Assembly (NCBI GenBank): GCA_964035545.1
Contig: OZ037765.1
Span: 963,501 to 1,023,500 of the forward strand
Length of the DNA stretch: 60,000 nucleotides
Reading direction: 5' to 3'
Source of the DNA: Bugula neritina
Taxonomy: Eukaryota; Bryozoa; Gymnolaemata; Cheilostomatida; Bugulidae
The notes under the pieces were generated by a model. The model did not search any database. It was given only the letters and a program-made list of their open reading frames with translations, and was not told where the DNA came from. Of the stretch, positions 6,301-58,100 are shown piece by piece. The translations under genes were made by a program, and so were the position numbers. The number at the start of each line of letters is the position of its first letter. The stretch's first letter is position 1.

Positions 6301-9300
6301 AGGTAAACAGTATATGTTTTTAATCATAGAATATAATTTATTAGTAACTGGACATGACTGTGAAAGGAAGTATCTTTCTTAAGTTTATTCATAACCTAGT
6401 ATTGTAAAAAATGTTGAGCTTGTGGGAGGAGAAGCAACTGATCACGGAAAGTTTTTCAGTAGTCATAAGAAATAAGACTAAAACATTTAGAAATGTCATG
6501 AGTGGGCAAAAAAGTTTATTAGTAATAATAGCACTGCAATCTAGACTGCCATTTATCTAAAAATAGTATTAGTTTTAGTATAGTATGTGATGTTCAGCAA
6601 GAGTTTAACACCTGCAAGCATTTCATCATGTAGCCTGATAATTATTTAGTAGCCAGAAAGTAATTTAGCTATAATAATATCATATAACGTTTTGCAAAAA
6701 GGAAAAGGAAGCAAAAGCTCTGAATTTGTTGTTCTAATCTTGACTCAAGAGTAATAAACAAGTTTTGCTGTGTAAAATATGTAGCATTTATAACTGTTTG
6801 GTAGACTTTTTATATTAAGATATAAACATTGTTTCTTATCTTCTGACAATATCAAATTGGACCTGTCTAGAATGTTATGCAACAATCAGAATGAATGATA
6901 ATTGCATGCATATAATTATGTTTCCAGTGAGAAATTCCATGACATCACCGATCCCACAGCTCTACCTGTAGCCAAGTTAGGTGATCCAATAGAATATAGA
7001 TCTCCACCCAAACCTGTGCCCATTCCATGTGATGTTTGTGAAGATGGAACAGAAGCTGTAGTGTTCTGTGTCGAGAGTGAGAAGAAGTTGTGTGAACAGC
7101 ATCAGCAGGTAGATCACTATTGGTATAATACAGTATGGTATAGAGCTTTGAACAAGACACACATTTTTAACCAATTATAACTGATAGCTGCCATAACTAT
7201 AGCATATATATCTATGAAACTTGCATAATTTCTGTATATTACATTCAAAATATTTATAACATGGTGCCTTGTATAAACCAGTCCTTGTGGCTGACAGTAT
7301 ATTAGAAAAAAGTACCCCTGGAGTTGCTTAAGCTCTCTGGCTTGAATCCAAACACCTTTTAAATATACTTTTAAGAAAAAGTATTAGTTTCTTCTATTCT
7401 TAAGGTGTGGGCCATGGTACTCTGTTCTGTGCTAAGAAGGGATAAACCCTGAGACAGCTGCTGTACACATATTGATTCATTATTGAATTATGTGCATAGA
7501 ATTTTAATATTGTGGCTTGTGACCAAATAATGTATTTTGTTGTTAGAACCACGAGAAGTGTATGAAGACTTACATGAACACTAGACATCAGTTTATACCC
7601 ATTGATGTCTACACAGCATCTCCACAACGCTATACTACTACTAACTGTGAACATCATGAACATCATCAGCTGATAGAGGCGTGTTCTGAGTGTCACCAGA
7701 GATTCTGTGTTCGGTGTGACTCTAAGAGTGGATGTGGAAATAACGCAGGTACTTTTATAATAATATTTTGTTTCCTTATAAAAAATGAAAAAGATTGGTA
7801 ATAGCAGCAAATCATCTTATCAAGATTTTCTCTGTGCTATAACACCCCACACCAACAGGTTTCTTACAATAATTATGACCAAATGATTTTGGCTGCAAAC
7901 AAACTCGACAATCAGGTTTTTACATAAAATTTCTGGAAATTGACAAACTGACAAACTTGCTATAAAATTCAAATAACAAATTTTCAGCATCTTTTAAATA
8001 GTCCTACGTATTATAGATAAGAAACTGGCGATAAAATGTGCCCATGATTTGGGATGCTTAAATCAATACTGTTTTTAAAGGAAAGGCAACTCTCCACAAC
8101 ATAACGTCACTCTCTAAGCTATCAGATGAAATGAGAAAAAACCTGACTGATAAAATATCTACTTTATCAGAGAAGATTTCAGTGTTGAATGACATGTCAA
8201 AGGATGCCTGGAAAGAATTGAGTGAAATAGAAAAGGATGCTAAGAAGATGATTGCCAGAGTAGATGATATAGCTAATGCTAAGGTAGGCATATATAAACA
8301 ATATTGCAATATATATATATAAATATATATATAAATATATATATAAATATATATATATAATATATATATATATATATCTTTTACCAGATAGAAGAGATCA
8401 AATCTCACTCACAGAAGCTGAAAGAAGAGATACGAGAGTACATGAGAAAGAGTGGTAAGATAGTAGATGAATACAGAATAGACTTAGCTTGGAACAAAAC
8501 ACTAGACAAAGTGACTCTGTTAGATTCTGCACAGCATATGGTTGATGAATTCAATGATGCAGAGATTGTCAAGACTTACAAAAAGACAAGCAAAGATGTG
8601 GAGGCTGCATCAAGCATCAGTATGATTGAGAAATGCTCAGTTTCGCACAAGTTCTTGGTGCCCTCATGTAAGGAAATTGTGTTTTCAAAAATGGTTTAAG
8701 CTTCTAACTTTAAAATTACTCAGAGCTCAGAGCCTTTGAAATAAAGCATGGGGTATCATCTATTAACATTTTTACAAATTTGCTGTGCAAATAAGTTAAA
8801 ATGGTTTGAAGAAGTAGGCAAAGCATTGGAGAAGTTTGGGAAAAGCCTGTGTTCTAGAGCAGAAATTTTGCAAAAGTAGTTATATTCTCATGGGATTTTC
8901 AATCTAGCTCCCCAAATCAAAATTTATAATGACAACATTAAAGAAATTAGGCTATTGAATTTTATCTCTTACTGCACTAAATAGTTTTGAAGTGCTATAT
9001 AGGGAATGACATTCTTTTATTGTGTGTGTTGTGTGTGTGTATATAATATATTGTCTGTTTGTATGAAAATACTACGCATATAACAATTTATTTATTTGTT
9101 ATATAAATATTTTGATCCAATCTTTCTAGATAATGAAATTTTAAAGTGATAGAACAACTATTTCATTTTTGCAGACTGCGAAAATATGCTAAGGTTTAAG
9201 TTGGTTCAGCCACCAGCTTCTTTACAATTTGATGGACTCCCTGCTAGTGGAGTATGTGGGAGAGTTAACATCACAGTTGAAGGAGATTTGATGTGTGAGG

Positions 9301-10429
9301 CACCGAATGGTATACAAGTAAGAAATGCAGATACTCTGAATATCACCAGGACAGTGAGCGACACCAACACTACAGTGTGGTGCGAAATAATTCAGCCCAA
9401 AGATGTGATGGTTGCCAGCTGCTTCAATGAGAAGGAAAAGATAGCTGAAGTCGTCCTTCTTGACCCAAATACTCTACAAAAAACACACTCTCTCTATAAA
9501 AACTTGGTGAATACATTCACCGCTTATAGAATTGCTCATTTCCAAACCATAGTTTATATTTTAGATGTCAGAAAAAAACTTCTGATAGTCTGTACTTTAC
9601 GAAACAATGCAGTAGAGAAGTTCCCTATTTCTGAGATGATGGACCCTCAATCTTTATGCATTCTCCCAGACTCCAATATACTAATAGGAGACTGTACTGA
9701 AAATGGTAAAGTGATTAGATATAAGTTAGACAACTCCAATCTTGTTAAAATATGGGAGTTCCCTGGCATCTCACAACCAACTGGCATGTCATATGATCTT
9801 AACTCTGAGCTCATTTATGTCTGTACCGAAAGAGGACCCCTTTTCATCCTTTCTCTTGAAGGTAAAGCAATAATAGTTTTGTTGTTTTAAACCATTTTAG
9901 GAGGTTAAAGCAAACAATTAAATTAAAGATAATGTTTATCATATAAAAGTTAACTGTAACTTATTATATCACAGCTGGATAAGCATCTGTAGTTTAATAG
10001 TTCTTTCCTTACATCACAAAACTATCTCAAAATAAACCTGAGCAGCTTTAAAAATTGCAATGCATATTTTTAACCGGTATTATTTATTTTTAGTGTACAA
10101 ATTAACCGGTGATTGTAACTTATTTTGCATAAATTAGAAAATAATAAAATAAATGTTTATAATCATTCTTCTCACTTAAAAACATATTAATTATAATGAA
10201 ACATAGTTCATTATTGCAAATATATAATGTCAAGGTCAATTATGTTTTTACTATCCGTTAGCTCAATACTATACTTTGTTATTTATTTCATACAGGTAAA
10301 CATATAGAAAGCATTTCATACGAAAGTCTTGGTGTGAGAGGATGGGTGTGGGACATAGCTGTGTACAGAGACAAAGTGTTTTTAGGATGCAGCTTTCATG
10401 GCCTGAGGAGATACACAATAAAGTATTAA
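3358..10429 (+). CDS. TRIM-like RING/B-box/coiled-coil/beta-propeller protein, copy 1
   Basis: Probable E3 ubiquitin ligase of the TRIM type. Exons: 3358-3539, 6928-7108, 7547-7748, 8081-8283, 8388-8667, 9175-9861, 10296-10429 (622 aa). The RING finger in exon 1 shows CGYC, then PCLHVYCMGC, then CAYC, i.e. the C3HC4 spacing. Exon 2 carries a B-box-like site (CDVC, VVFC, KLCEQH) that continues into exon 3 (NHEKC), followed by a second zinc site (CEHH, CSEC, FCVRC). Exons 4-5 (about residues 190-350) are a charged helical coiled coil. Exons 6-7 (about 270 aa) look like an NHL/YWTD-type beta-propeller that would bind the target, closing with VYRDKVFLGC and GLRRYTIKY. I chose the ATG at 3358 because copy 2 starts at the same place; an in-frame ATG at 3343 would add five residues. 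It is a tandem paralogue of the gene at 14343. The target, and the exact propeller family, are unknown. Confidence 0.85.
3540..6927 (+). other. Long first coding intron of TRIM-like gene 1
   Basis: A 3.4-kb intron, against 1.3 kb at the same position in copy 2. It holds imperfect repeats of AAAATGGCACAGGT type (about 4075-4160) and a strand-asymmetric G-rich stretch (about 4200-4300) with many GGGG/GGGTTTGGG runs. The rest is AT-rich with nothing coding that I can see. Confidence 0.6.
8301..8378. repeat. (TA)n-rich microsatellite in TRIM-like gene 1 intron
   Basis: ATATATAAAT/ATATAT repeats fill almost the whole 104-bp intron between the two coiled-coil exons, ending just before the TTTTACCAG acceptor. 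Copy 2 has no such run in the corresponding intron. Confidence 0.9.
9021..9055. repeat. (GT)n microsatellite
   Basis: TGTGTGTGTT followed by GTGTGTGTGT and a TA tail, inside the intron before the propeller exon of TRIM-like gene 1. Confidence 0.85.
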
Positions 10430-17300: not shown

Positions 17301-20041
17301 AGATGAGTACAGAATAGACTTAGCTTTGAACAAGACATTAGACAAAGTAACTCTGTTAGATTCTGCACAGCATATGGTTGATGAATTCAATGATGCGGAA
17401 ATTTTAAAAGCCTACAAAAAGACAAGCAAAGACGTGGAGGCTGTATCAGACATCAGTATGGTTGAGAAATGTCTGGTATCTCGCAAAGTCTTGGTTCCTA
17501 GAAGTAAGTACAATCATCTTCATATAAAAACCTAGCCATGGTCTGCAGATTTAAAGTTAGTTCTAAGGAATTAGAGCTAATGCAGTTATGTTTTGAGATT
17601 TGGCCAATGTTTGTCTTTACATGAGTCAGTTTTGAAATACTACATTTGACATGCAAAGATCATTTCCTTCCTGTTGTAGTTCTCAGTCATTTGAAAAATG
17701 GTTCTTGATCTTTGAGATTTTCCTGATGTTTATGAAAAATAGTTTAAGACTTGACTGTGTGTTTAATTTTGAGATCCCATTTTATCTATGTTCATCACGA
17801 GTTACTTACAACTATGGCAACTTTAGTTTGAGTTTCTACATTTCAAATGGTCTCAACTTGTAGTCTCATTCATTTCCCACTTACTTAGCTAATGTTAGAA
17901 GATATGCTGCTATCTGCCTCAGACTATAGCCTTTAGAAGTGATGCTATCATGTTGTAGCAGATGAGGAAGATGGGTTAGGGTTGAAGTTGGTGCAGCCAC
18001 CAGCTTCTCTACTGTTTGAGGGACTCTCGGCGAATGGAGGATGTTGGACTGTAAGCGTTACATCTGCCGGAAATCTCATGTGCCGAACAGTAGATGGAGT
18101 AGAAGTAAAAAACACAGACATTCTCTATACAATCAGAACGGTGAGAGACACCAACACTATAGTGTGGGGAGAAGTCATTCAATCTGAAAATGCAATGATT
18201 GGAAGCTGCTATAACAAGAGGGAGAAAGTAGCAAAAGTTTTCCTTCTTGACTCAATTTCCCTTCAGAAAACCCAAACACTCTATAAACACCCAGTAGACA
18301 AACTCACTCACTGTAGAATAGCTCAGTTCAATTCCACAGTCTATATTCTAAACTGGAGAGAGGGGCAGCTAGTAGTATGCTCTCTGTTAAATGACAACAA
18401 GAAAAAGCTACCTATTCCTGGGATGGAAAACCCCGGAAGTTTATGCGTCTTACCGGACGCTACTTTGCTAATAGGAGAATCCACTGCAGATGGTAGAGTG
18501 AGTAGATACAAAATAGAAAATTCCAAACTCACTCAACTGTGGAATTATCCCCACATTCCGAGACCAACTGGCATATCTTATGACCCAATATCTGGACTGA
18601 TTCATATCTGCACATTGCAAGAACCTCTTTTCATCCTTTCTATTGAAGGTAAATTGACAAACTATTCACTGAGTCTGCTGAATTTGTTATTTCATTTAAT
18701 TCTTTTTAAGTGATATTTTGTAGTAAATGATTGCATAATAGCATAGCTAGACAAACTCATACATAGGCTATACATAGTTTGTAGTTATCTACCCCATGCA
18801 GGCTACATGTAGTTTGTAGTTATCTACCCCATACAGGCTACATGTAGTTTGTAGTTATCTACCCCATACAGGCTACATGTAGTTTGTAGTTATCTACCCC
18901 ATGCAGGCTACATGTAGTTTGTAGTTATCTACCCCATACAGGCTACATGTAGTTTGTAGTTATCTACCCCATACAGGCTACATGTAGTTTGTAGTTATCT
19001 ACCCCATACAGGCTACATGTAGTTTGTAGTTATCTACCCCATACAGGCTACATGTAGTTTGTAGTTATCTACCCCATACAGGCTACATGTAGTTTGTAGT
19101 TATCTACCCCATGCAGGCTACATGTAGTTTGTAGTTATCTACCCCATACAGGCTACATGTAGTTTGTAGTTATCTACCCCATGCAGGCTACATGTAGTTT
19201 GTAGTTATCTACCCCATACAGGCTACATGTAGTTTGTAGTTGTCTACCAATTACAGTTATCATGAGTAAAAAGGGTTTAGCCTTTAAAAATAATCTATAA
19301 AAAGCAGTGAGCTATTCTATTTATGAGTAAATTGTGTGAATTGTATGTGCACTGTATTTTATTGGGAAAATGTTTCAGAAATAGGCTGGATTTTTACAGC
19401 CGTCATTTTACGTAGTTGGTTTTTATTTTATTTCTATATTTTAAAATGAATATACAATTCATGGCTGAAATCAATTGATGTAGTGTACTACAATAATATA
19501 TATAATAATATAATAAAATATATTGTATAGCATATTATTATATACTTTGCTATAATATATTATATACATATACATATTAGGATGTATTATACAATATATC
19601 AAATATTATATCATATAATATATTATATAATATATTATGTAATATACTATATGATATATTACATAATATAGTGTATAATATATTACATAATACATGATAT
19701 AATATATTACATAATATATCATATAATATATTATATACTATATTATGTAATATATTATATAATATATCAAGTAATATATTATATAATATGTTATACAATA
19801 TATCAAGTAATATTTTATATAATATATTATGTAATATATTATATAATATATTATATAATATAGTATATAATATATTATATGATATAATGATATAATATTA
19901 TCAACAGGTGAGCTGATCCAAACTATTGGCCGTGAAAGTCTTGACATGAATGACTCAGTGTGTGACATAGCTGTATACAAAGATAAAGTGTTTCTGGGAT
20001 GTGATAACGATGGCGTGAGGAAGTACACAATGAAATACTAA
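14343..20041 (+). CDS. TRIM-like RING/B-box/coiled-coil/beta-propeller protein, copy 2
   Basis: Tandem paralogue of the gene at 3358, with the same seven exons and intron phases: 14343-14527, 15822-16002, 16427-16628, 16781-16986, 17224-17503, 17962-18648, 19908-20041 (624 aa; starts MMADTR, the second ATG aligns with copy 1). The RING (CGYC, PCLHVYCMGC, CAYC), the B-box (CDVC, VVFC, KLCEQH) and the second zinc site (CEQHKN, CSEC, FCIRC) are intact. The coiled coil spans exons 4-5. The propeller exon is clearly more diverged from copy 1 than the RING and B-box exons. It closes with VYKDKVFLGC and GVRKYTMKY. Probable ubiquitin ligase with an unknown target. The last intron (1.26 kb) is enlarged by a 35-bp minisatellite and AT-rich tandem sequence; the same intron in copy 1 is 434 bp. 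No inactivating change was seen. Confidence 0.85.
14528..15821 (+). other. First coding intron of TRIM-like gene 2
   Basis: 1.3 kb of AT-rich sequence without obvious repeats or coding frames, ending in ATGTTTGCAG. It is much shorter than the matching 3.4-kb intron of copy 1. Confidence 0.6.
18766..19247. repeat. 35-bp minisatellite, about 13.8 copies
   Basis: A 35-bp unit with core GTAGTTTGTAGTTATCTACC, varying mainly at CCATACAGG/CCATGCAGG. It sits in the last intron of TRIM-like gene 2. The unit contains CTACATGTAG, itself a 10-bp palindrome, so each unit carries an inverted repeat. Uninterrupted direct units without unique spacers rule out CRISPR. Confidence 0.95.
19492..19900. repeat. 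AT-only tandem/inverted repeat tract
   Basis: About 400 bp of ATAATATATTATATAATATA-like sequence in the same intron, ending 8 bp before the final acceptor (TATCAACAG). It is strongly self-complementary and may form cruciforms. It creates spurious long minus-strand ORFs. Confidence 0.85.
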
Positions 20042-40000: not shown

Positions 40001-43000
40001 CAGTGCAATTTATAATATAGATATGAAATGTTTTGGCTGTGCATTATGCATGATGTATAAACCTAATAATTGTATACACTAAGGCTAAGTGCTAATCAAC
40101 ACTTATTTAAAACATTTTTATGTCACAGATAAAGTAACAACTCTTTATGTATGATTATAAACTCCATTTTTTCATATCTTTCCATATAAAACCTCATTAT
40201 TTTAATAGTTTTTGGCAACAACCAATAATCAATAATCAATACATGTATTGGCTTTGTAGATCTTCACTCCAAGTGATCCTGAATACACTTGGCTGGCTGC
40301 CAAAATGTGGTTCAACCTCGCTGACTGTTCGCTTCACCAGTCCGTCTCCCACCTTGGTAGGACAACTTCTAACCAATTACCTAAAGTACATACTTGCTAA
40401 GCTTTCTATCACTATCAGATGTGTTGTACTATTATATAAAGGAATTCTATTTTAATGAAGCGTCTGCATAGGCTAATTATTTTCATACACTTGACAGGTA
40501 TGACTCATTTGCTGATGGAATCTGTTGCCGTAGTAACCAATAGACAACTCTCTCGGTCCCACCCACTTTACAGACTACTTGCCCCACATTTTCTATTCAT
40601 TATGAATATCAACACGTAAGGCTAATTTAACATGCTGTCTATTGACTCTCGGGTTTACTTGTAATAACCAAGGTCAAATCATTGGCATCACAAGTTCAAG
40701 TTTTCAAAAATTTCTGAATAATATGTGACTTTAGAAGTAAAATAAATTCTATTATGTAATACCCAAGTAAACTGTAGGAGCTGCAGTATATAGCCAATCA
40801 TGTCATTCCAAACTGTTGATATGATTGGTGCAAGAAGCAGCTACAAGTATATTAGAAAAGGGAAAGCAGATTCTGTTCTTCATAGGTATAAGAGCTGAGA
40901 GCTTTTTAGTGCCAACATGCCATAGGCATTGATAAAAATTTATATTTTTAAGTATGTTTAAACTAATTGTGACATGCAACCTCTAAATTTTCATTGACTC
41001 GTAGACTGGCTATGGAAGCGCTGGTGTCGGTGGGAGGCTGGGTGGATACGGCCATGAATATAGGACGCACTGGTATGTTCAACATAATCAAGGCGAATTG
41101 GAAGGACTGGAAGCTGGAGACTCACGGTAACTTGCCGGCAAATCTGAGGATCAGAGGAGTAGAGGAAATCCCCAACTACTTCTACAAAGATGATGCACTT
41201 CTGCTGTGGAATGCCATCAACAAATATGTGGCAGAAGTGGTTAATCAAGTCTATGGTGAGCTCCGTTTAGCTTTGGTTCTCCATTATAAAAACTTGTTAA
41301 AGGCTTTTCAGCTATCCTTCCCAACTGAAAGTCTTGTTTACAACATGATAGGTTCTAAGTCAATATATATGACTATTTACAAGAGCTCTAGGGTTACTTC
41401 ACCGTAATGTCTTTTTTTGTTTTTCACTCTTCTAGTTTGTAGCCTACTGATAACAGATTACCAATTACTAGTTGTGAGTTATACTTGTTACTAGTTACTA
41501 GTTACTAGCTATTAGTTCCCAGTTACTAGTTACCAGTTACTAGTTAGCAGTTACTAGTTACCAGTTACTAGTTCCCAGTTACTAGTTTACAGTTACTAGA
41601 TACCAGTTACTAGTTACCAGTTTATTTCACAGCTAAATTCAAAATTATTTGCCTGCAGCAAAGTATATGCCTAACTTTATTAGATGTCTAAAATTTCAAA
41701 AGTTCCCTTAGTATAGAATAGGTGATCACTGCTACTGACCATAGTTTCCTTAATTCTTTACACAAAAGTAAGTCTGTGACCAAAGTTTTCATATTTTAGA
41801 CACAAAGGAGAAATTTACTGGAGATTTTGAAGTCCAGAACTGGTTAGAGGAGTTGGAAGGAGAAGCAGAAATAGTAAGAAACTTTATAATATCCTTGCGT
41901 TGAATTAGTTTTCTCTATCAGATCTGCTGCTCATCACTTACTTGATGGTCACAGTTCGTTTAAGGTCATACTTTTCATTTTCTGGCTCTTTGCCAGGTGC
42001 TTTATGTTCTATATGAACAATGTTCCACTGATAGCTCGAACAGGTTGAATGTCACAGGAACAAAAAAAATATGAAAAGATAAAGAAACTTATGTTCTCCA
42101 ATATACTTTTTTATTTTTTTCAAAAGCCAATTCATGTTTAAGTTATAGCTTGTTGAAAAACATAGTCCCCCTTCCACATTCTTTTTAATTTATACGCTCC
42201 TGACTTGTTATTGTGTCTCAATATGCCTTGTATTTGAGTGCTTGTTAGTCTCGCTTCACTAACTTTGCCTATACTTCACAAGTGCCAGTGCTGCTGGCTC
42301 AAAAGCTAAATGTTATAAACTGTCAGCTAAAACCCAATCTTGTATTCCTAGGTTGGTTGGCCTAAATAAAACAATAGTCAAATCATGATTTTATGTTTTA
42401 AAAATTTACTCTATTCTAACCTGCTGCCTAGCTAGTTCTATTTTTGATGTATAATTACAAAATTTGTGATACATTTTTTTGGCAACCATGTGATTTATAA
42501 AATGCAGTAATGGTACTTATAATATTATATTATTATCATTATAATATATTATATAGTATTATGTGTGTTTTTATTATACTGCATAATATCTATTTTATTA
42601 TTGTTGTTGTGCAAACAAGTGCAATTAACCTAGTTTTCAAAATGTACCTCTAAATTATCAGAATATCAGTTTAGATATTTTCATGCTTTGTAAGGTAAAC
42701 CTAAAAAAAGAGGCTGTATTCCCAAAGTAAAGGGTGTTGAACTATGAACTATATTAGATTAGCCACTCTGCTACCAAGTGCATCAGTATAATATTATATG
42801 AATAGCTCTGATGCTTTGTCTCCGGTGGCTGGCTGCGATATGATAACTTGGCCAACTTCCAAGAGTTTAAAATTGGCGCAATTATTCAAGAGGTTACATA
42901 CTGCACAGAGCTAGCAGTGATAGTAACCTTGCTATCGGCTGTACTTATTACAACTGCCAGCATATAAGCTGCATTGTAGAATGCCGTTGGGGTAGGCTAG

Positions 43001-46745: not shown

Positions 46746-47630
46746 CACATTATGATTAGTAACCATTATTTAGCATTAGATTTGCCTTATTGCAATAAAT
46801 ATACTATTAATACAATAAAACACTATAAATTTCATTCAAATTTTCAAAAAGGTGATGTTCAAGTAGCATAATATAAAAGTTAATAATAAAATTGAAGAGC
46901 TGAAGTTATTTTAGTCTCACTACTATTTATATATCATTCTTCTACTCTGATACTGCATATTATATGGCATTACCACACACGTCTAAGAACGCTGTCTGAT
47001 TTCAGGAAATGCGTAATTTATAACTGCTTTAGACTGGCTTAGATGTCCCATAATGCAGACTTTACCAGCTGCCAAGGTAATGGAATTAATCATAGATGAA
47101 GTGCTGGCTGGTAGAAATTAATAAGCAATCAGCACAATGAGGTGTACATATATCTAGCGTAGTTAGAGCTATAATGTAGTAGGTGCATTATAGAGCTCAA
47201 TAAGTTTATTTATCAGCCTTACAGCCTTTATCAGCCTTTTTCCCTTTTCCTCATTGTTTTTGTACAGTGCTATGCTATAGCGCTATTGTACAGTGCTATT
47301 GTGTAATCCTATTGATGCGGGTATTATATTACAAAAAAGCTAATAAGGTTAGTAAAGGTAAAGTGAATTACTAAAGACGCAGTTTTTTTGCTGGGATTAC
47401 ATACAGATGTACAGACAGACATAGGCACAGACAGAAGAATTCGTAGTAATTCTGCCTAGACCAGGTGATTTAGTTTAATCAAGACAAATGACTCAGAGTT
47501 ATAATGAAATGAAAGCCGATTCAAAGTAACTTATTTGGAACATCTAACATCTAACTCCATAGCAAAGTAAAGGCTTCGTTGTTTTGAAATTAATCAATCT
47601 AAACAGTCAATCGTGTTTTTTACAACAAGA
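46746..47630. other. Intergenic spacer, right end of lipoxygenase duplication
   Basis: Similarity to sequence after copy 1 (TAAGAACGCTGTCTGATT and CATAATGCAGACTTTACCAG, like 32632 and 32691) ends near 47090. Beyond that I see no gene. Confidence 0.5.
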
Positions 47631-47633
47631 ACT

Positions 47634-47862
47634 GTAGTATAGTAACTGTAGTATAGTAACTGTAGTATAGTAACTGTAGTAACTGTAGTATAGTAACTGT
47701 AGTATAGTAACTGTAGTATAGTAACTGTAGTAACTGTAGTATAGTAACTGTAGTATAGTAACTGTAGTAACTGAAGTATAGTAACTGTAGTATAGTAACT
47801 GTAGTATAGTAACTGAAGTATAGTAACTGTATAGTATAGTAACTGTAGTATACTAACTGTAG
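47634..47862. repeat. Tandem repeats of GTAGTATAGTAACT, just upstream of the ankyrin-caspase gene
   Basis: About 16 imperfect units, mostly 14 bp and some 9 bp (GTAGTAACT), ending about 100 bp before the chosen start codon. The array therefore lies in the probable promoter or 5' UTR. Short upstream ATG frames exist between it and the start (from 47887 and about 47955). Confidence 0.9.
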
Positions 47863-47967
47863 TGCAGTGTCTGAAGTAGGTATATTATGGCTGAATCATC
47901 AAATCAGCCATATTACTACAACCACTGCTTAATTCTTTCAAATTTTTTAATTTAATGAAGGAAAAGG

Positions 47968-50900
47968 ATGGATGAAAATAATAAAAGTGAGTCTGGAGAT
48001 GAGTCAGAGAATGACTCAGTCTCTGACGGACCTGACTCTCTAAGTTCAGACGACTCCTCCGAGTCCAGTGGTGAAGATTTCTCTCCAGATTTGTCTGATG
48101 GTGAGTTGGAGTGGAATCAAGATGACAACACAACTCCAGCTGTAAGTTTCTTAGTATTCAATGCAAAGCAACTGTTTACAAAGTTAATAACTGTATTCTA
48201 TGTGGAGCTTGAGATACTTCCAATAATAATGAATATGAAATAAACTCCTGTAGTCCAAAATATTTTGGAATAAAAGATACTAAAATTAGAAAACCAAGAT
48301 TTTGTGTGTTGGTACCCTAGCTACTCCTAATGATCTTAATCATACATTGCTAAATAATTCAATGACCAAACTCGTTTGTTTAATTGCAACAACATTTTAA
48401 ATTGCCTGCGTAACAGCAAAATATGTTTATGTGAAAAAGTAATTTTATTTTATCTATCCTCAGAATCAGTTGAAAATAGCAGCCATGAATGGTGACATAG
48501 AACAAATGAACTCGATTCTGAAGAAAGACACAGGTCAGAACCTACTGCTGAATACAGACAGTCAGGGGCGCACAATTCTCCACAACTGTAGCACAGTGGA
48601 GTCGGCGAAATACATCCTGTCAGTTTGTCCCGCAGAGAAAAAGAAACGCTTACTTGAGACCAAAAGTTATTCTGGGGAAACAGTCTTACATTGCGCCGTG
48701 CAGACCGGATGTCCAGACTTGACTAGACTTTTCCTGAATGAAGTAAACCCAAATTCTAAGAAGTTGCTATTTGAAAAAGACGGGCATGATAGTACAGCCC
48801 TCCACTTTGCAAGGAATGTCGAAGTAGCCCAAGTGTTGCTAAATGCACTCACTTTTGAGGATCAGATTGAATTTATATTTTTGACAGATGAGTTTGGTTT
48901 GACTGCACTTCATCAGGCGTCTACACATAGATGCCTGGATGTAATATCGCTTTTCCTTAACACAGTCAAGAGTGAAAGTCAAAAGCTGTTGCTTCAGTCG
49001 GACGTGTATGGCCGTACCTCCTTAGCCTATGCTGGAAACTCAGCAACCGTTGAACTGCTAGTAGGACATTTTAATGGTGATCCAACTGAGTACATTTATC
49101 ATGCAGACCTGGAAGGTAGAACTCCGCTGAGAGTGACGATAGATGAAGGTTATCGATTAGATGTTATTAGATACTTTATTGAAATGTTTGACTCCGAGAA
49201 ACAAAAATTGATTCGAATGGCAGCAAAAGATGGTAGCACAACTCTCCACGGAGTAGAAAATGTAGAAACAGCTCAAATCTTGGTAGAAGCTGTGGCTCTG
49301 GTGGATAGGATTCCTTTTATCTTCCAGGAGAACACAGAAGGCCAGACAGCTTTCCATTCAGCAGCAGAGTTTGACAAAGAAGAAGTCCTAATTTATTTGG
49401 CTGATCAAGTAAAAACTGATTGCATAAAGTTGCTGACTGCCAGAGACAAACAAGGTCGAAATGCGTTGCACCTCGCCAATGAAAAGGCAACAGCAAGAAG
49501 ACTCTTGAAGTTGTTCACAGCTGCGTTGGAGTTGAGCCCAGATTCCAGTGGAGGTTTGATCAACGGATGCTCATATATAATGCAACTAGATAACTGTGGA
49601 GACTCAGCAGTGAGCATCGCTTTAGTGAAAAACGATGTCCAATATGATACGTTTAAATACTTGCTAAAACATGCTCGCGAACATGGCACAAAACAAAATT
49701 TAAAGTTTCTCTTAGAGCACAGAAATATTTCTGGAAGAAATGTTTTTCATTTAGCTTGTCTTTCCTTTTCCATTGAGAAGTTATTCCGAGTTTTAGAAAG
49801 CTATAAGAATTTTGTGGATGTTCAAGCTGTAGTTTTACCTGACAAATATGGAAACAGCCCTGTAAGTTACATAGCTGCTAAATACTACACACACTGGTTT
49901 GCCGACATTCTAATGCAGCTGCCATTACCACTAAGACGAATTCTGTGCGCAAGTAAAAACACAAGAGGTGTCAATGTGAAGGAGATCGTTCATCGTCAGC
50001 AGTTTGACAGGAAGTACTTTCTGGAGTCGATACTCGGAGAGCCATACATGTTTGTCAAAGGTGCTGAGGGCAGTTCTCAAGCTCAAAGGACAGACAGTTA
50101 CTACCGAACATCTTTCCAAAACTTTGTGTACAAACCAAAGAGACGTGAAGATGACGTCATACTGAAAGTCATCAATTATGCTTTGAACTACTATTCCATC
50201 ATAGATCCTGGTTCAGTCACATCTCTTGCTCTCTGTGTTGATTCATTGGATCAATCTTCACACCACCAGTTCAAGAGAGGCACTATTTCAAAGGCAAGAA
50301 TTTATAATTAAAAATTGGCAATCAACCAAAGAGTGCTAACTTTAACAAAATAGCAGAACGCAGTTTTGCTGTTGATAAGATTTTATAGAAGTCCATATGC
50401 CTGAGCGTTTCACTGTTTTTATTTGTTTATTATTTTAAAACAGGTGAGTAAGAAAATAGACTTAGCAATGAAAGAAGACGGGTCGGCTTTGTGGCTGTTC
50501 CTTCAAAGTGGCTGTGATGATGATAAACTGAGGCTAACTCAGCAAGCAATCAACTCTATGGACAAACCATCTTACCATGGTAAACCTAAAGTAAGTTACC
50601 TACCGGGTTATAGCTGCCTTCTATAATGTTTCTTGGGCGTGAAACTGTTTATCATCTCTATAGATAGATTGTTATATGTGGTTATATGCTCTAATTTGCT
50701 TTCGAATTGAAAATACTATATATGCATCAGAATAATTGTAGGAAATTTTTAAAACCTGCCTTATATGAAAGTTAGTGTGCAAGAAAAAGTAACTCGAAAA
50801 TTAACTGGTAAAATGCACGCCCTATTTTAAGTTTAGCATATTTTATATTTATTAAAATAAAGTTTTTCAGCACAAAAGTTGCTGCAGCAACTTTTTAACA

Positions 50901-53900
50901 TTCAACAATTATAGGCTTTTAAAGCCTCTTTCGCCACCTATATCATAAGAAACAACTTGCTTTTTTTATTCTAAACCAGAATTAATATTATAGCTTTAAT
51001 ATAATCAAAATTTTAAATAAATTGTAGACATGCTTGTACATTTGCTCAGTTATTTGCAGTGACAGTTCTCATCTTACACATGTTACTAGGTAGCTGTTGT
51101 ACAAGTAGTAGCACCACCACCAGATGATATGCAAGGTTCTCATCACCAGACTAGTCTTATTCCACCTGGTCCTGATTACCTCATCATTTCAGCTTTTCTG
51201 AGAGCAAATCACGAGAGAGATGAGTAAGTAGTTAACTTTCTCACCTAGAGGGTTGTACTCCTGTATGTGTAGCCGTATAGTAAGCTGTAATTTCAGTGAA
51301 GTTTTAAATTTGTTTGCTAGCAGTATTTGGTTATAGACAATGTCATTAATAAACTTAGTCTGCTAAAACAAGTCTGTTCTACAGCTTTTTCAATCCATTA
51401 AAAGTCTTAAGGTTTACAAAATCCACTTATAATAATTATATCATGTACACAAGTAGGAAATCTCGTGATATTAGAGAGGGTAAGTGTCATATGGCTGAGT
51501 TATGAAATGGTTAAGAATAGTCCTTAATATGGTACTTTTATTTCTGACAATGTATAAAAATGTATGCATATGGGGTAAAAGTCACTTCTTTAGTTAGAAT
51601 CAGCTTTTTAATGACATGAAACAGTAAAGGGTATCAAAATAAGTCTAAGCAAAATACGAATTGATAGATTATCTATTAAGGTATTTTTTTTATTCTAGAT
51701 ACTCACTTATAAATGCAATAATTGCTAAGGAAATACAGAAACAATTGTTATACATTATGAGTATATACCTTATGTTGAAACTTGACTTTCTGAATGAAGA
51801 CATCACTGAGGCATAACATATGCAGCTAATGCTATTCCACACAGGTCCTGTGAGAGATGGACCTTCAGTTCTCAAGACACATTCAGATGTGATATAGACG
51901 CAGTGTTGAAGAGACTAGAAAGAGACAGCAATGTGAAGGATGTCCTAATCAACTCAACTCTTGGGAGACAATATCAGTCAAGTTCTCCGTTGACTGAATC
52001 AGAACAGGATATCTCTGAACACCCTCGAGTGGATTTTGGTGAAGCGTATGGAGGTAAAGCTCTGCTCATCTGCAATACATTGGGTCGTCGCAACTGGGAG
52101 AAAGAGCTGCTTGATGCCCAGACAGTCACTGAAAAGTACTTTGGACTTCAGGTGAGAAAATTAGCCCTATTTCCAATAATATTTCTCTTAAATACCAGCT
52201 ATGGAACAGTGGTTAGAGGTTACAATTCTATATTTAAAATGCAACAGATTTGCTGGTGCCAATAACTCTTTTGTTCTATTAATAATTCTATAACTGCCAA
52301 GATAGTTTGAGTAAAAGTCTGTAGAATGTTGTTAAAAATCCAACTAGTTAGATTTTATAAAGGACTTTATACTGAAAATATGAGTATTTCTAGTACAACC
52401 TCATTACATTCTCTGATGGGTAAGGTTTTTTAGTTTTAACCAGGATACATAGGATATAGTGAGGGTACATGGTATAGTGAGGGTACATAGTATAATGAGG
52501 GTATATAGTATAGTGAAAGTGCATAGCTGTCATACTAACGATCTTGGACATCTTGCAGACGACAACCAAGAAGGACTTGTCCAGCGCAGACATGATACAG
52601 GCCGTAGCAGAGTTTAGCCGACTTCCTTCTCACGGCCCTGTAACCTGTCTCATTATCATGTCTCACGGTGATCAGAGAGGAGATATTGTTGACAATGCTG
52701 GCTCCACCTGTACTGTGCAGAGTTTGCTCCATGCTTTAGTCTCCCCTGAACTGTCCCCAACGTACAAAGTAAGTGAAAATCAGTTTTAGTCTGGGAAATA
52801 TTTTCTGCACCGCATCTGCTTGTCCTAATGTGAGTTTATACACTGCGGCATTTAAGTCAATGGTACATAGATATATAATAAAGTCTCATTTTGATTTCCA
52901 AATGCTGATTTCTTTTAGCTGCATTTAATATTGTTTGCATTGTGGGCATAGTTAGTACTACTTATTTCACTTGTTATTAGATTTAGTAATATTTATAGAT
53001 GCTTGTTGAGAATTCTTTTCCATGTACTTTACAGATTGCGGTGTTCTCTTTCTGCCGGGGTAGTATACGGCGCAGCTACACAAGAGTAGAGTGTAGCTGG
53101 GAGTACACAGAACTGCCTAACATCCTACGCTCCAAGGACGTGCCGCTAGTACAAAAGACTTTGACAGAACAAGAACTTTTGAAAGAATGGGAAGACAACC
53201 CTTTACCCGGCATCCATATTCCTAAAGATGTGTTTGTATGCTTTACTACTCTCCCAGATAGCAAGTGAGTTAAATAGTTTATTATATTTTTTATTTAAAA
53301 TTAGCATTTTTGAAAATTGAAATATCGAAATAAAAATTCCTTGTAAAAATTTACAGGAGCAAACGAGGCTTGTTCCTGGATGCATTGAGAAGTAATTTAT
53401 CGAATATGTGTAAATACAATATGGCTGACAAGTTCAAGGACTTTCCTACACAAACTACAAATTCAATTCCCACAGAATGCAGCATCGTCAAAGAGTCTTT
53501 CACTAAAGTTACTTTAGAATTATCTACATCTGTTGAAAGTCATTGTAATAAAACTAGTGAGCTCACAAACAATAATAACATAGTTGACTACACAGAAACT
53601 AATGAGATCATCAACAACGCCATTACTGATGACATCACACCTAATCAAGCCAACATTACGGTTGACATTTCTATGACTGACAAAGTCCAACAAAACCCGC
53701 TGTTGAGTGACGCTACCACTGCAATGAGGAGCGAGAATTATAGACCTCCGAGAAGCAAAAAGAGAGAGTTTTCCAGCGTAAGCCCTGCCCACACACAAGA
53801 AAAGATGGCGTGGAAAAAAAGAAAAAGAAGCCAAGTGGATTTGGTGCATTTGATAACGGATGTAGCAGCCGAAGTACGTGAGAACTCAGGGTATGCAGTC

Positions 53901-53951
53901 TACATCAACTACTGCTACAGACCAGATAAACATGTCATGTTATCTTTCTAG
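47968..53951 (+). CDS. Ankyrin-repeat protein with C-terminal caspase-like domain
   Basis: Exons: 47968-48141, 48464-50293, 50444-50590, 51090-51223, 51845-52151, 52559-52768, 53035-53264, 53357-53951 (1208 aa). Residues 1-58 are Ser/Asp/Glu-rich. About 60-560 form a long ankyrin array (GRTILH, GETVLHCA, STALHFA, GLTALHQA, GQTAFHSA, GRNALHLA, GRNVFHLA), many units with longer helices than standard. A linker follows. The caspase-like fold spans about 825-1045: KALLICNTLGRRNWEKELLDA, CLIIMSHGDQRGD with the presumptive catalytic H900, then AVFSFCRGS with C941 in place of the usual QACRG. A p10-like strand (KDVFVCFTTLPDSKSKRGLF) lacks the SWR substrate-binding motif. The tail (about 1045-1208) is Thr/Asn-rich with basic patches RSKKRE and WKKRKRS, like a nuclear signal. 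Whether it cleaves protein is uncertain. The intron after 50293 needs a GC donor. Confidence 0.8.
50294..50295 (+). other. GC splice donor after the ankyrin exon
   Basis: CAAAG|GCAAGA fits the GC-AG donor consensus, no GT donor is available nearby, and the next acceptor (TTTTAAAACAG, exon from 50444) joins in phase to VSKKIDLAM. If the intron is kept, translation stops at 50309-50311 after five extra residues, giving an ankyrin-only protein of about 673 aa. Confidence 0.65.
50591..51844 (+). other. Introns 3-4 of the ankyrin-caspase gene
   Basis: Two introns of 499 and 621 bp flank the small exon 51090-51223 (VAVVQVVAPPPDD..., a Pro-containing linker). No other feature is seen in them. Confidence 0.6.
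52435..52530. repeat. Short degenerate repeat (GAGGGTACATAGTATAGT)
   Basis: Four or five imperfect units of about 18 bp in intron 5, just before the exon that carries the catalytic His. Confidence 0.7.
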
Positions 53952-55197: not shown

Positions 55198-58100
55198 TCA
55201 CGGATTTTCATCTGATGATGTCAGCTGCTTTTCGTGGTCATACTTTGAGGAGCCTTGAAAGAAAATGAAAATGAAATTTAGAAAATTACTTGCAGCTCAA
55301 AACTCAGACAAGAACATAAAAGGTCCAGAACGAAAAGTTCAGCATAGAGTGAGTAGATAGAAGTATAGAGTGAGTAGATAGAAGTATAGAGTGAGTAGAT
55401 AGAAGTATAGAGTGAGTAGATAGAAGTATAGAGAGAGTATATAGAAGTATAGAGAGAGTAGATAGAAGTATAGAGTGAGTAGATAGAAGTATAGAGTGAG
55501 TAGATAGAAGTATAGAGTGAGTAGATAGAAGTATAGAGTGAGTAGATAGAAGTATAGAGAGAGTATATAGAAGTATAGAGAGAGTAGATAGAAGTATAGA
55601 GTGAGTAGATAGAAGTATAGAGTGAGTAGATAGAAGTATAGAGTGAGTAGATAGAAGTATAGAGTGAGTAGATAGAAGTATAGAGAGAGTATATAGAAGT
55701 ATAGAGAGAGTAGATAGAAGTATAGAGTGAGTAGATAGAAGTATAGAGTGAGTAGATAGAAGTATAGAGAGAGTATATAGAAGTATAGAGAGAGTAGATA
55801 GAAGTATAGAGTGAGTAGATAGAAGTATAGAGTGAGTAGATAGAAGTATAGAGTGAGTAGATAGAAGTATAGAGAGAGTAGATAGAAGTATAGAGAGAGT
55901 AGATAGAAGTATAGAGAGAGAGAGAGTAGATAGAAGTATAGAGAGAGTAGATAGAAGTATAGAGTGAGTAGATAGAAGTATAGAGTGAGTAGATAGAAGT
56001 ATAGAGAGAGTATATAGAAGTATAGAGAGAGTAGATAGAAGTATAGAGTGAGTAGATAGAAGTATAGAGTGAGTAGATAGAAGTATAGAGTGAGTAGATA
56101 GAAGTATAGAGAGAGTAGATAGAAGTATAGAGAGAATAGATAGAAGTATAGAGAGAGTATATAGAAGTATAGAGATAGTAGATAGAAGTATAGAGAGAGT
56201 AGATAGAAGTATAGAGAGAGTATATAGAAGTATAATGTGAGTATATAGAAGTATAATGTGAGTATATAGAAGTATAGAGATAGTAGATAGAAGTATAGAG
56301 TGAGTAGATAGAAGTATAGAGTGAGTAGGTAGAAGTATAGAGAGAGTAGATAGAAGTATAGAGTGAGTAGATAGAAGTATAGAGTGAGTAGATAGAAGTA
56401 TAGAGTGAGTAGATAGAAGTATAGAGTGAGTAGATAGAAGTATAGAGTGAGTAGATAGAAGTATAGAGTGAGTAGATAGAAGTATAGAGAGAGTAGATAG
56501 AAGTATAGAGAGAATAGATAGAAGTATAGAGAGAGTATATAGAAGTATAGAGATAGTAGATAGAAGTATAGAGAGAGTAGATAGAAGTATAGAGAGAGTA
56601 TATAGAAGTATAATGTGAGTATATAGAAGTATAATGTGAGTATATAGAAGTATAGAGATAGTAGATAGAAGTATAGAGTGAGTAGATAGAAGTATAGAGT
56701 GAGTAGGTAGAAGTATAGAGTGAGTAGGTAGAAGTATAGAGTGAGTAGATAGAAGTATAGAGTGAGTAGATAGAAGTATAGAGTGAGTAGATAGAAGTAT
56801 AGAGTGAGTAGATAGAAGTATAGAGTGAGTAGGTAGAAGTATAGAGTGAGTAGGTAGAAGTATAGAGTGAGTAGATAGAAGTATAGAGTGAGTAGATAGA
56901 AGTATAGAGTGAGTAGATAGAAGTATAGAGAGAGTAGATAGAAGTATAGAGTGAGTAGATAGAAGTATAGAGTGAGTAGATAGAAGTATAGAGTGAGTAG
57001 ATATACTGAGAGAATATTTACCTGGTAAGAGCGGAGAGAGAAGAGAACTGGCAGTAGAGTTGCTATTCTGTCTAGAGAGTTGTCTCCCCACCACTCCTCC
57101 GTTACCAGCAGACTTAGTGTTTGATTTGATAGATTCCGGTATGAAAGTGGCAATAACAATGGCGGCTAAAACTAAGATGGCTCCCAGGGCGAAAGGAGGC
57201 CCGGGTACTAACTGTAAAGGAAATGGAACACACGTGAGCATAAACTGGTGACATCACAACTCTCCCCGAATAACTTGACAAACTCTCAATACTAAATTAA
57301 TTCTGTGAAGCTGTCTTAATGATGAGTCATACTAAAAATTTCATCTTATAATCATTTGAGTTCATACATAAAGCTGTTGCGGAGTAAGCCAACAAAGACG
57401 ACATTCCATAGAATGATTGAAATTATTCATTAAAACTGGTATGCAAACAACAATGACATCAGCACACATATTGATTACATTATCACGTATATGGATGACA
57501 TCACGACTTACGCGATCAGTGAGACTCGTGCTCTCAGCCTGCACAGTTCTCGTGTCAGGCATGATGTTAGACTTTATAGAGCCTTCCTTTTTGTCGTTGA
57601 GATCAACATTGAACAGATAGAAGACGAATCCAAACAGCGCGGGTCCCAGTCCCATACATAATCCTCTAATGCCCGTCACCACCCCCTGCGCTACACCTGC
57701 AACAAAATTGACGTCTACAGTTACTCTCACGAGGCGATGATAGCTACAAACTACTTGATTAGCTAGGATTTGAATGATGAGACTGAATTTAAGTTGTCTT
57801 ACCCTGCTGGTCAGGATTAGCCTGTGAGGAGACAAAGGCGCTGATAGCTGGATAGGTTATACTAGAAACTGAGGCTACAAATCCAGCCACCCACATGACC
57901 CTGTAAACATCCAATATACTACAATCAGTACCACAATACAATCAGTACCACAGACACTACAATCAGTACCACAGACAGTACAATCAGTACCGCAGATAAA
58001 CAAACAAGGAGTTACCTCCCCATACACTAGGGTAGTATAAATAGTTTACCAATTGGTGGACCCGAAGCCATATAGCGTCAGCTGTATAGTCTCTGCTGAT

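Follow-up and report, generated by a model that had tools for sequence, protein, structure and literature searches.

An ankyrin array, a degenerate caspase-like half-domain and a divergent caspase domain in a predicted gene family of the bryozoan Bugula neritina

Introduction

What is an ankyrin array doing in front of a caspase-like domain, and is the domain behind it still a protease? The question is raised by a predicted gene on the plus strand of a 60,000-nucleotide stretch of the genome of the bryozoan Bugula neritina (assembly GCA_964035545.1, contig OZ037765.1, positions 963,501 to 1,023,500 of the forward strand), here called the window. A sequence-only reading had described one continuous gene in which an ankyrin array is fused to a divergent caspase-like domain with a basic tail resembling a nuclear localization signal, and had left the choice between a protease of altered specificity and an inactive regulator. 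Caspases fire upon the pairing of two units, and it is the p10-type strands that form the dimer interface. Judging from the sequences compared here, the protein very probably consists of an ankyrin array, a degenerate caspase half-domain (pseudocaspase) and a caspase-fold protease with a His/Cys dyad, and belongs to an expanded bryozoan family.

Results

The eight exons of the gene (47968-53951, Table 1) were rebuilt exactly into 3,627 nt, coding for 1,208 residues with a single terminal stop, which bears out the claim of one continuous gene in whole codons. Six of the seven introns are GT-AG and the remaining one (50294-50443) is GC-AG; all seven contain stops in all three frames and are AT-rich (16-32% GC). 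When the whole protein was compared with Pfam, only ankyrin families (Ank_2, E 2.4e-28) and Peptidase_C14 (residues 832-1030, E 2.1e-12, 47.7 bits versus a cut-off of 21.4) passed the cut-offs, and neither a CARD nor a DED prodomain was among them. In a search of the PDB by sequence alone, the caspase part matched CED-3 (5.2e-6) and caspase-1 (1.4e-4), and it has the large- and small-subunit parts of the caspase fold. H900 and C941 align with the SHG and CRG motifs of CED-3 (PDB) and of canonical caspases, whose sequences, here and in the profile tests, were entered by hand rather than drawn from database records. The dyad, the pentapeptide SFCRG and the absence of SWR, all noted before, were confirmed by this alignment.

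The family was followed through the genome (215.8 Mb, 295 contigs), which holds at least 176 exon-level Peptidase_C14 matches. Searches with the caspase domain and with the ankyrin exon gave 41 (E <=10) and 125 matches, respectively, in the same places. Nineteen caspase loci were obtained, including that of the window, and each of the 19 is preceded on its own strand, at a distance of 1.0-6.9 kb, by an ankyrin match, for which the chance expectation is about 0.001 per locus (35 ankyrin loci used); this pairing used 40 of the 41 caspase rows (one window row was omitted), 46 of the 125 ankyrin rows and 8 of the 176 C14 matches. Thirteen stretches were run through a home-made spliced aligner, which was checked on the window gene. 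Eight yielded ankyrins plus caspase and were modelled as paralogs, with 9 of the 19 loci aligned, and five (L049-L053) yielded ankyrins only with a query of the window-gene type. These five loci, at C2:30.51-30.55M and C2:32.92M, represent a second ankyrin-caspase type, in which five of eight C14 rows follow ankyrin matches at 1.8-3.4 kb and the motifs are THG, Q[SA]CAG and S-x-R. With a canonical caspase profile, nine of 13 loci scored 193-251 and four (L047, L057, L059 and L060) only 36-60; the latter had been picked for their ankyrin matches and, within the DNA examined, have ankyrins without a convincing caspase.

All eight paralogs have introns at the positions corresponding to residues 864 (phase 0), 934 (phase 0) and 1011 (phase 2), one locus being two columns off at the first of them. 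The exon 2-3 intron behaves less regularly, with phase 0 in four paralogs, phase 1 in two and a position outside the DNA examined in two. Because its position is inconsistent among paralogs, this junction with its GC donor has the weakest support of all the splices in the model. Among the exons the weakest is exon 1, which encodes the acidic leader, since nothing else in the genome matches it.

Five Bugula neritina proteins of the same family are already on record: EB796_014620 (P0001), EB796_009038 (P0002), EB796_014945 (P0003), 'CASP9' (P0004) and EB796_007936 (P0005). They are 27-32% identical to the window gene (BLAST), and P0003 shares 77% identity with the paralog at C2:31.65M over 519 columns. 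Caspase parts including H and C are present in all five; P0001 and P0002 also hold the end of the ankyrin exon and the degenerate domain described below, and P0003 and P0004 hold parts of that domain. Their gene models are incomplete, with the first strand region missing from P0001 and P0005, most of p10 from P0002, the ankyrins from P0004 and the degenerate domain from P0005. A paralog query against a set of 5.8 billion sequences returned two Bugula neritina proteins (6.7e-98 and 2.4e-68). The family profile, scored only on the 7,998 candidates with the most words in common, found nine proteins at E <=10: six from Bugula (E <=1.1e-28), one more at 1.2e-22, and two ankyrin proteins at 0.2 and 5.2. 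With region 560-1050 of the window protein as the query, none of 7,055 candidates reached E <=10. A tree of 22 caspase domains placed the window gene, the eight paralogs and four Bugula proteins in one group (100/100), separate from the canonical caspases and from the second ankyrin-caspase type. The common layout of the 19 loci, the shared caspase-domain introns and the existing Bugula annotation, which joins ankyrin and caspase parts in one protein, thus give good support to ankyrins and a divergent caspase being fused in one protein. As a separate observation, an intron-less caspase-like frame elsewhere in the genome (L001), with SWR kept and DASFG at the Cys site, is a probable dead caspase.

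All 14 aligned members (the window gene, eight paralogs and P0001-P0005) retain the catalytic H and C. The canonical Gln of the pentapeptide is replaced by Ser in 13 members and by Cys in P0002, and the SWR loop is lost in all 13 testable members, which carry TLPDS[K/R]SK with a shortened loop instead; P0002 lacks the region. Two of the usual sequence marks of an Asp-specific caspase, the S1 Gln of QACxG and an SWR-type Arg in p10, are therefore missing, and the dyad is nonetheless conserved. Where the S1 Arg of the large subunit would stand, all eight paralogs, judged by eye, have Arg and the window gene has RR displaced by about two residues. Of the two options left by the sequence-only reading, this pattern leans towards the first, and the dyad-bearing domain is best read as a putatively active protease with an altered P1 pocket.

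Between the ankyrins and this domain, at residues ~679-817, there seems to be a second, degenerate caspase-like domain, which the earlier reader missed and which corresponds to the C-terminal half of a caspase without catalytic residues. Its family consensus contains GKPKIAVIQS, LIPPGPDYLILSV and VQKVxVNSTLxKxY, which resemble GKPKLFFIQACRG, the p10 strand ADFLYAYST and the last strand. A profile was made from seven of nine members, C8_7358 and C8_7345 being left out for unsure splicing and parts of C4_18602 and C4_20318 being masked; mean column identity over the seven is 47%. Compared by hhalign with five canonical caspases, it scored 31.5 (P 2.9e-4, 86 columns) in a register that fits the first two motifs, and none of 200 column shuffles reached this score (best 21.3). 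Against the family's own caspase domain the score was 28.1 (P 0.0014), versus 19.5 for the reversed control and a best shuffle of 21.4 (0/100 on each side). After the addition of four Bugula rows, the two scores were 30.9 and 25.1, respectively, the best shuffles being 25.9 and 21.9, and 0/200 shuffles reached either score.

The exon structure repeats as well. In the window gene, the intron phases 0-0, 0-2 and 2- of exons 3-5 recur in exons 6-8, and the phase-0 intron at K/VAV (the slash marks the intron) matches that at K/IAV of the live domain. Among the eight paralogs, the K/IAV intron of the degenerate part was modelled in six, in two of which the donor side lies outside the DNA examined, and the phase-2 intron in five. 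An AlphaFold2 model of P0001 has a pLDDT (predicted local distance difference test) of 51 overall, with residues 251-360 at 59-88 by block and 7 of 11 blocks at or above 80; the strands and helices of these residues follow the caspase order, and the first six Foldseek matches of the model are caspases (best probability 0.94). Profile match, shuffles and predicted fold together indicate an N-terminal caspase-like domain without a dyad. The catalytic Cys and SHG are absent from it, C4_20318 and C2_31650 carrying a Cys at or near the place, and what is left is a strand-helix-strand unit that reaches the lost Cys site, together with a reduced p10.

The caspase domain, which had been taken to end at residue 1045, extends to the last residue, 1208. 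Bugula P0004 aligns through the end of CED-3, in a stretch where its own model has low pLDDT. The proposed nuclear tail was rejected because the basic cluster KKRKR (53814-53828) lies inside an insertion in p10, which is longer in the window gene than in the paralogs; the cluster was not seen in the eight aligned paralogs, and the last 40 residues are the p10 helix and strand.

Table 1. Exons and domain parts of the ankyrin-caspase gene (positions in the window)
Feature	Position	Strand	Content
Exon 1	47968..48141	+	Residues 1-58, acidic leader; placed by GT donor/AG acceptor and frame
Exon 2	48464..50293	+	Residues 59-668, ankyrin array (repeats to ~560), then linker; GC donor at 50294
Exon 3	50444..50590	+	First part of degenerate caspase-like domain; phase 0-0
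Exon 4	51090..51223	+	Degenerate domain, K/VAVVQ..LIPPGPDYLI; phase 0-2, mirroring exon 7
Exon 5, whole	51845..52151	+	End of degenerate domain and start of caspase domain
Exon 5, first part	51845..52010	+	End of degenerate domain, ..VLINSTLGRQY, to residue 817
Exon 5, last part	52050..52151	+	Start of caspase domain, residues 831-864, first strand KALLICN
Exon 6	52559..52768	+	Large-subunit part with SHG; catalytic H900 at 52664-52666; phase 0-0
Exon 7	53035..53264	+	SFCRG, catalytic C941 at 53053-53055; inter-subunit linker; p10 strand FTTLPDS; phase 0-2
Exon 8	53357..53951	+	Remaining p10, insertion, last p10 helix and strand, stop
p10 insertion	53424..53828	+	About residues 1034-1168, limits approximate; from alignment with eight paralogs and canonical caspases
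Final p10 helix and strand	53829..53948	+	Residues 1169-1208

Several other features were observed. A 14-bp tandem array (AACTGTAGTATAGT) at 47630-47863 stops some 100 bp short of the start codon and may be part of the promoter or 5' leader; just 3' of the gene, a 21-bp minisatellite of ~79 units (55344-57003) has a period that keeps three minus-strand frames open. Two similar open frames (LKLVQPPASL..) at 9153-9890 and 17943-18713 are probably a duplicate pair, the former with a weak NHL-repeat match below the cut-off, and the frame 40973-41407 has a lipoxygenase match just under the cut-off (E 5.4e-5). The minus-strand frame 57362-57856 (RGLCMGLGPALFGF..) resembles a membrane transporter, with a likeness to MFSD14/HIAT1, and has no Pfam match. 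Rfam gave nothing in the window at gathering scores. Elsewhere in the genome, COX1 matches lie on contigs C17, C65, C196, C295, C6 and C4; the C295 copy has nine in-frame TGA codons (mitochondrial type), the C6 copy may be nuclear, and the others may derive from associated organisms.

Discussion

What can be read in the predicted sequences is the architecture, the family, the kept dyad and the loss of Gln and SWR. The explanation that we favour as a whole, with a probability of roughly one half, is that of an ankyrin sensor, a pseudocaspase partner and an active protease with an altered pocket. The ankyrin array would replace CARD or DED as the input and would sense or dock a ligand. The pseudocaspase, keeping p10-type strands, might be the cis partner of the live domain, much like c-FLIP for caspase-8, and by pairing with it hold or license it and set its threshold. 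Ligand binding or clustering would then free a protease whose P1 pocket is unlike that of the Asp-specific caspases. Sensing or docking, cis pairing and cleavage, taken together as a mechanism, we infer at somewhat less than even odds.

Several observations weigh against this explanation. Both hhalign scores of the degenerate domain fell once the Bugula rows were added, the degenerate part of four members gives no C14 match in Pfam, and a profile search of the PDB with this part alone finds no caspase. The best Foldseek E for the P0001 model is 0.038, with none <=0.001, and the caspase region that was matched is not stated. The VIA-align rows for the same model are ankyrin-type chains spanning mainly residues 1-150, and are therefore uninformative on the degenerate part. 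Cis pairing is not seen in the P0001 model because its caspase domain is mostly of low confidence and the protein lacks the first strand region; the P0004 model has a mean pLDDT of 57. Lastly, the end branch of the window gene in the tree of 22 domains is 2.16 versus a median of 0.37, and only 46 of 78 family-invariant columns (59%) are kept, 32 being changed, so the window gene may be under relaxed constraint.

This last point would suit a decaying copy in an otherwise active family, as would the longer p10 insertion. However, the 1,208 codons are free of internal stops and all splice sites are usable, and the window gene keeps 15 of 15 active-site columns versus 31 of 63 others (hypergeometric P 1.2e-4, the 15 columns having been named after the list of kept invariant columns was seen), which favours kept catalysis over decay; we regard such a loss of function as rather improbable. 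The same retention, together with H and C in all 14 diverged members, speaks against a live-looking domain that is itself a pseudoprotease, making the whole protein an ankyrin-guided scaffold or decoy. This inactive regulator, which the missing Gln and SWR loop and the long branch would fit, appears unlikely, if a little less so than decay.

The ankyrin array might also clamp the protease directly in cis until a ligand releases it, the pseudocaspase being a spacer only. Ankyrin surfaces can bind caspases, since PDB titles list DARPin complexes with caspase-3 and caspase-2 and the OspC3 ankyrin domain with caspase-4; but the sequences compared here gave no sign of such a contact, and the conservation of the degenerate part exceeds what is expected for a spacer, so we give this clamp the same small chance as the inactive regulator. 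The least likely is that an ankyrin gene and an adjacent caspase gene were wrongly joined. The GC donor of exon 2, the in-frame stop at 50309-50311 behind it and the shifting place of this intron among paralogs would agree with two genes, but the introns between exons 2 and 6 measure only 150-621 bp, so that one gene could hardly end and another begin within them. The 19 loci of one layout, the Bugula annotation and the degenerate-part introns modelled in paralogs also argue for a single gene.

If the ankyrin-pseudocaspase-protease explanation holds, the fusion of a dead half-partner and a ligand-binding array to a live unit would make the switching of pairing directly testable within one chain. 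Because the family is expanded and clustered, a role in defence or cell death is suggested. More speculatively, and with the odds rather against it, the family of at least 19 loci might form an innate immune or self/non-self repertoire of single-chain 'sensor plus executioner' death proteases, each with a variable ankyrin receptor, a c-FLIP-like half-caspase and a rebuilt P1 pocket; bryozoans would then add one more origin of dead-plus-live caspases in a single chain to those of corals and mammals.

Among known systems, CSP-3 of C. elegans is a caspase relative reduced to the small-subunit part that restrains CED-3, as a stand-alone protein acting in trans. An ankyrin-caspase was not found in the titles and abstract starts of the open-access literature, where a phrase search gave one unrelated paper, which is no proof of absence; the ankyrin array would thus be a caspase prodomain type that such phrase searches did not turn up. 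Nor was bryozoan cell-death machinery described in the papers found in this way. In the available text of the papers concerned, caspase prodomains are CARD, DED, DD and dsRNA-binding in bivalves (PMC7836458) and CARD, DED and DD in amphioxus (PMC3196919), with 0 occurrences of 'ankyrin' in each, and the available parts of PMC8195603 and PMC4986451 describe no ankyrin-prodomain caspase.

The dead-plus-live tandem itself is already known, from coral caspase-X and mammalian caspase-16. Caspase-X of Acropora combines, within a single chain, an N-terminal caspase-like domain without H and C with a live caspase domain, occurs as several genes like the window family, and its inactive domain dampens killing in HeLa cells (PMC4715348). 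Pairing was modelled there through beta-6, as in c-FLIP/caspase-8 (PMC4715348). In contrast to the window family, 'ankyrin' has 0 occurrences in its main text, and its live domain is described as typical in all respects; the loss of Gln and SWR, and a dead domain of which only the C-terminal half is left, are features of the window family. In mammalian caspase-16, according to the available text, the prodomain arose from duplicated caspase exons, the dyad was lost only in the N-terminal copy, and exon phases serve as the argument for duplication, as they do here (PMC12198278); it is, however, one mammalian gene, ankyrins are not mentioned in that text, and its prodomain keeps large- and small-subunit segments. 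The pairing of dead and live partners in c-FLIP(L)/caspase-8, as outlined in both papers (PMC4715348, PMC12198278), is the model for the proposed cis partner, but these are separate proteins with DED prodomains. Compared by description with caspase-X and caspase-16, the predicted bryozoan proteins differ in that ankyrins stand in front, the pocket is changed and no more than the C-terminal half of the dead copy is left.
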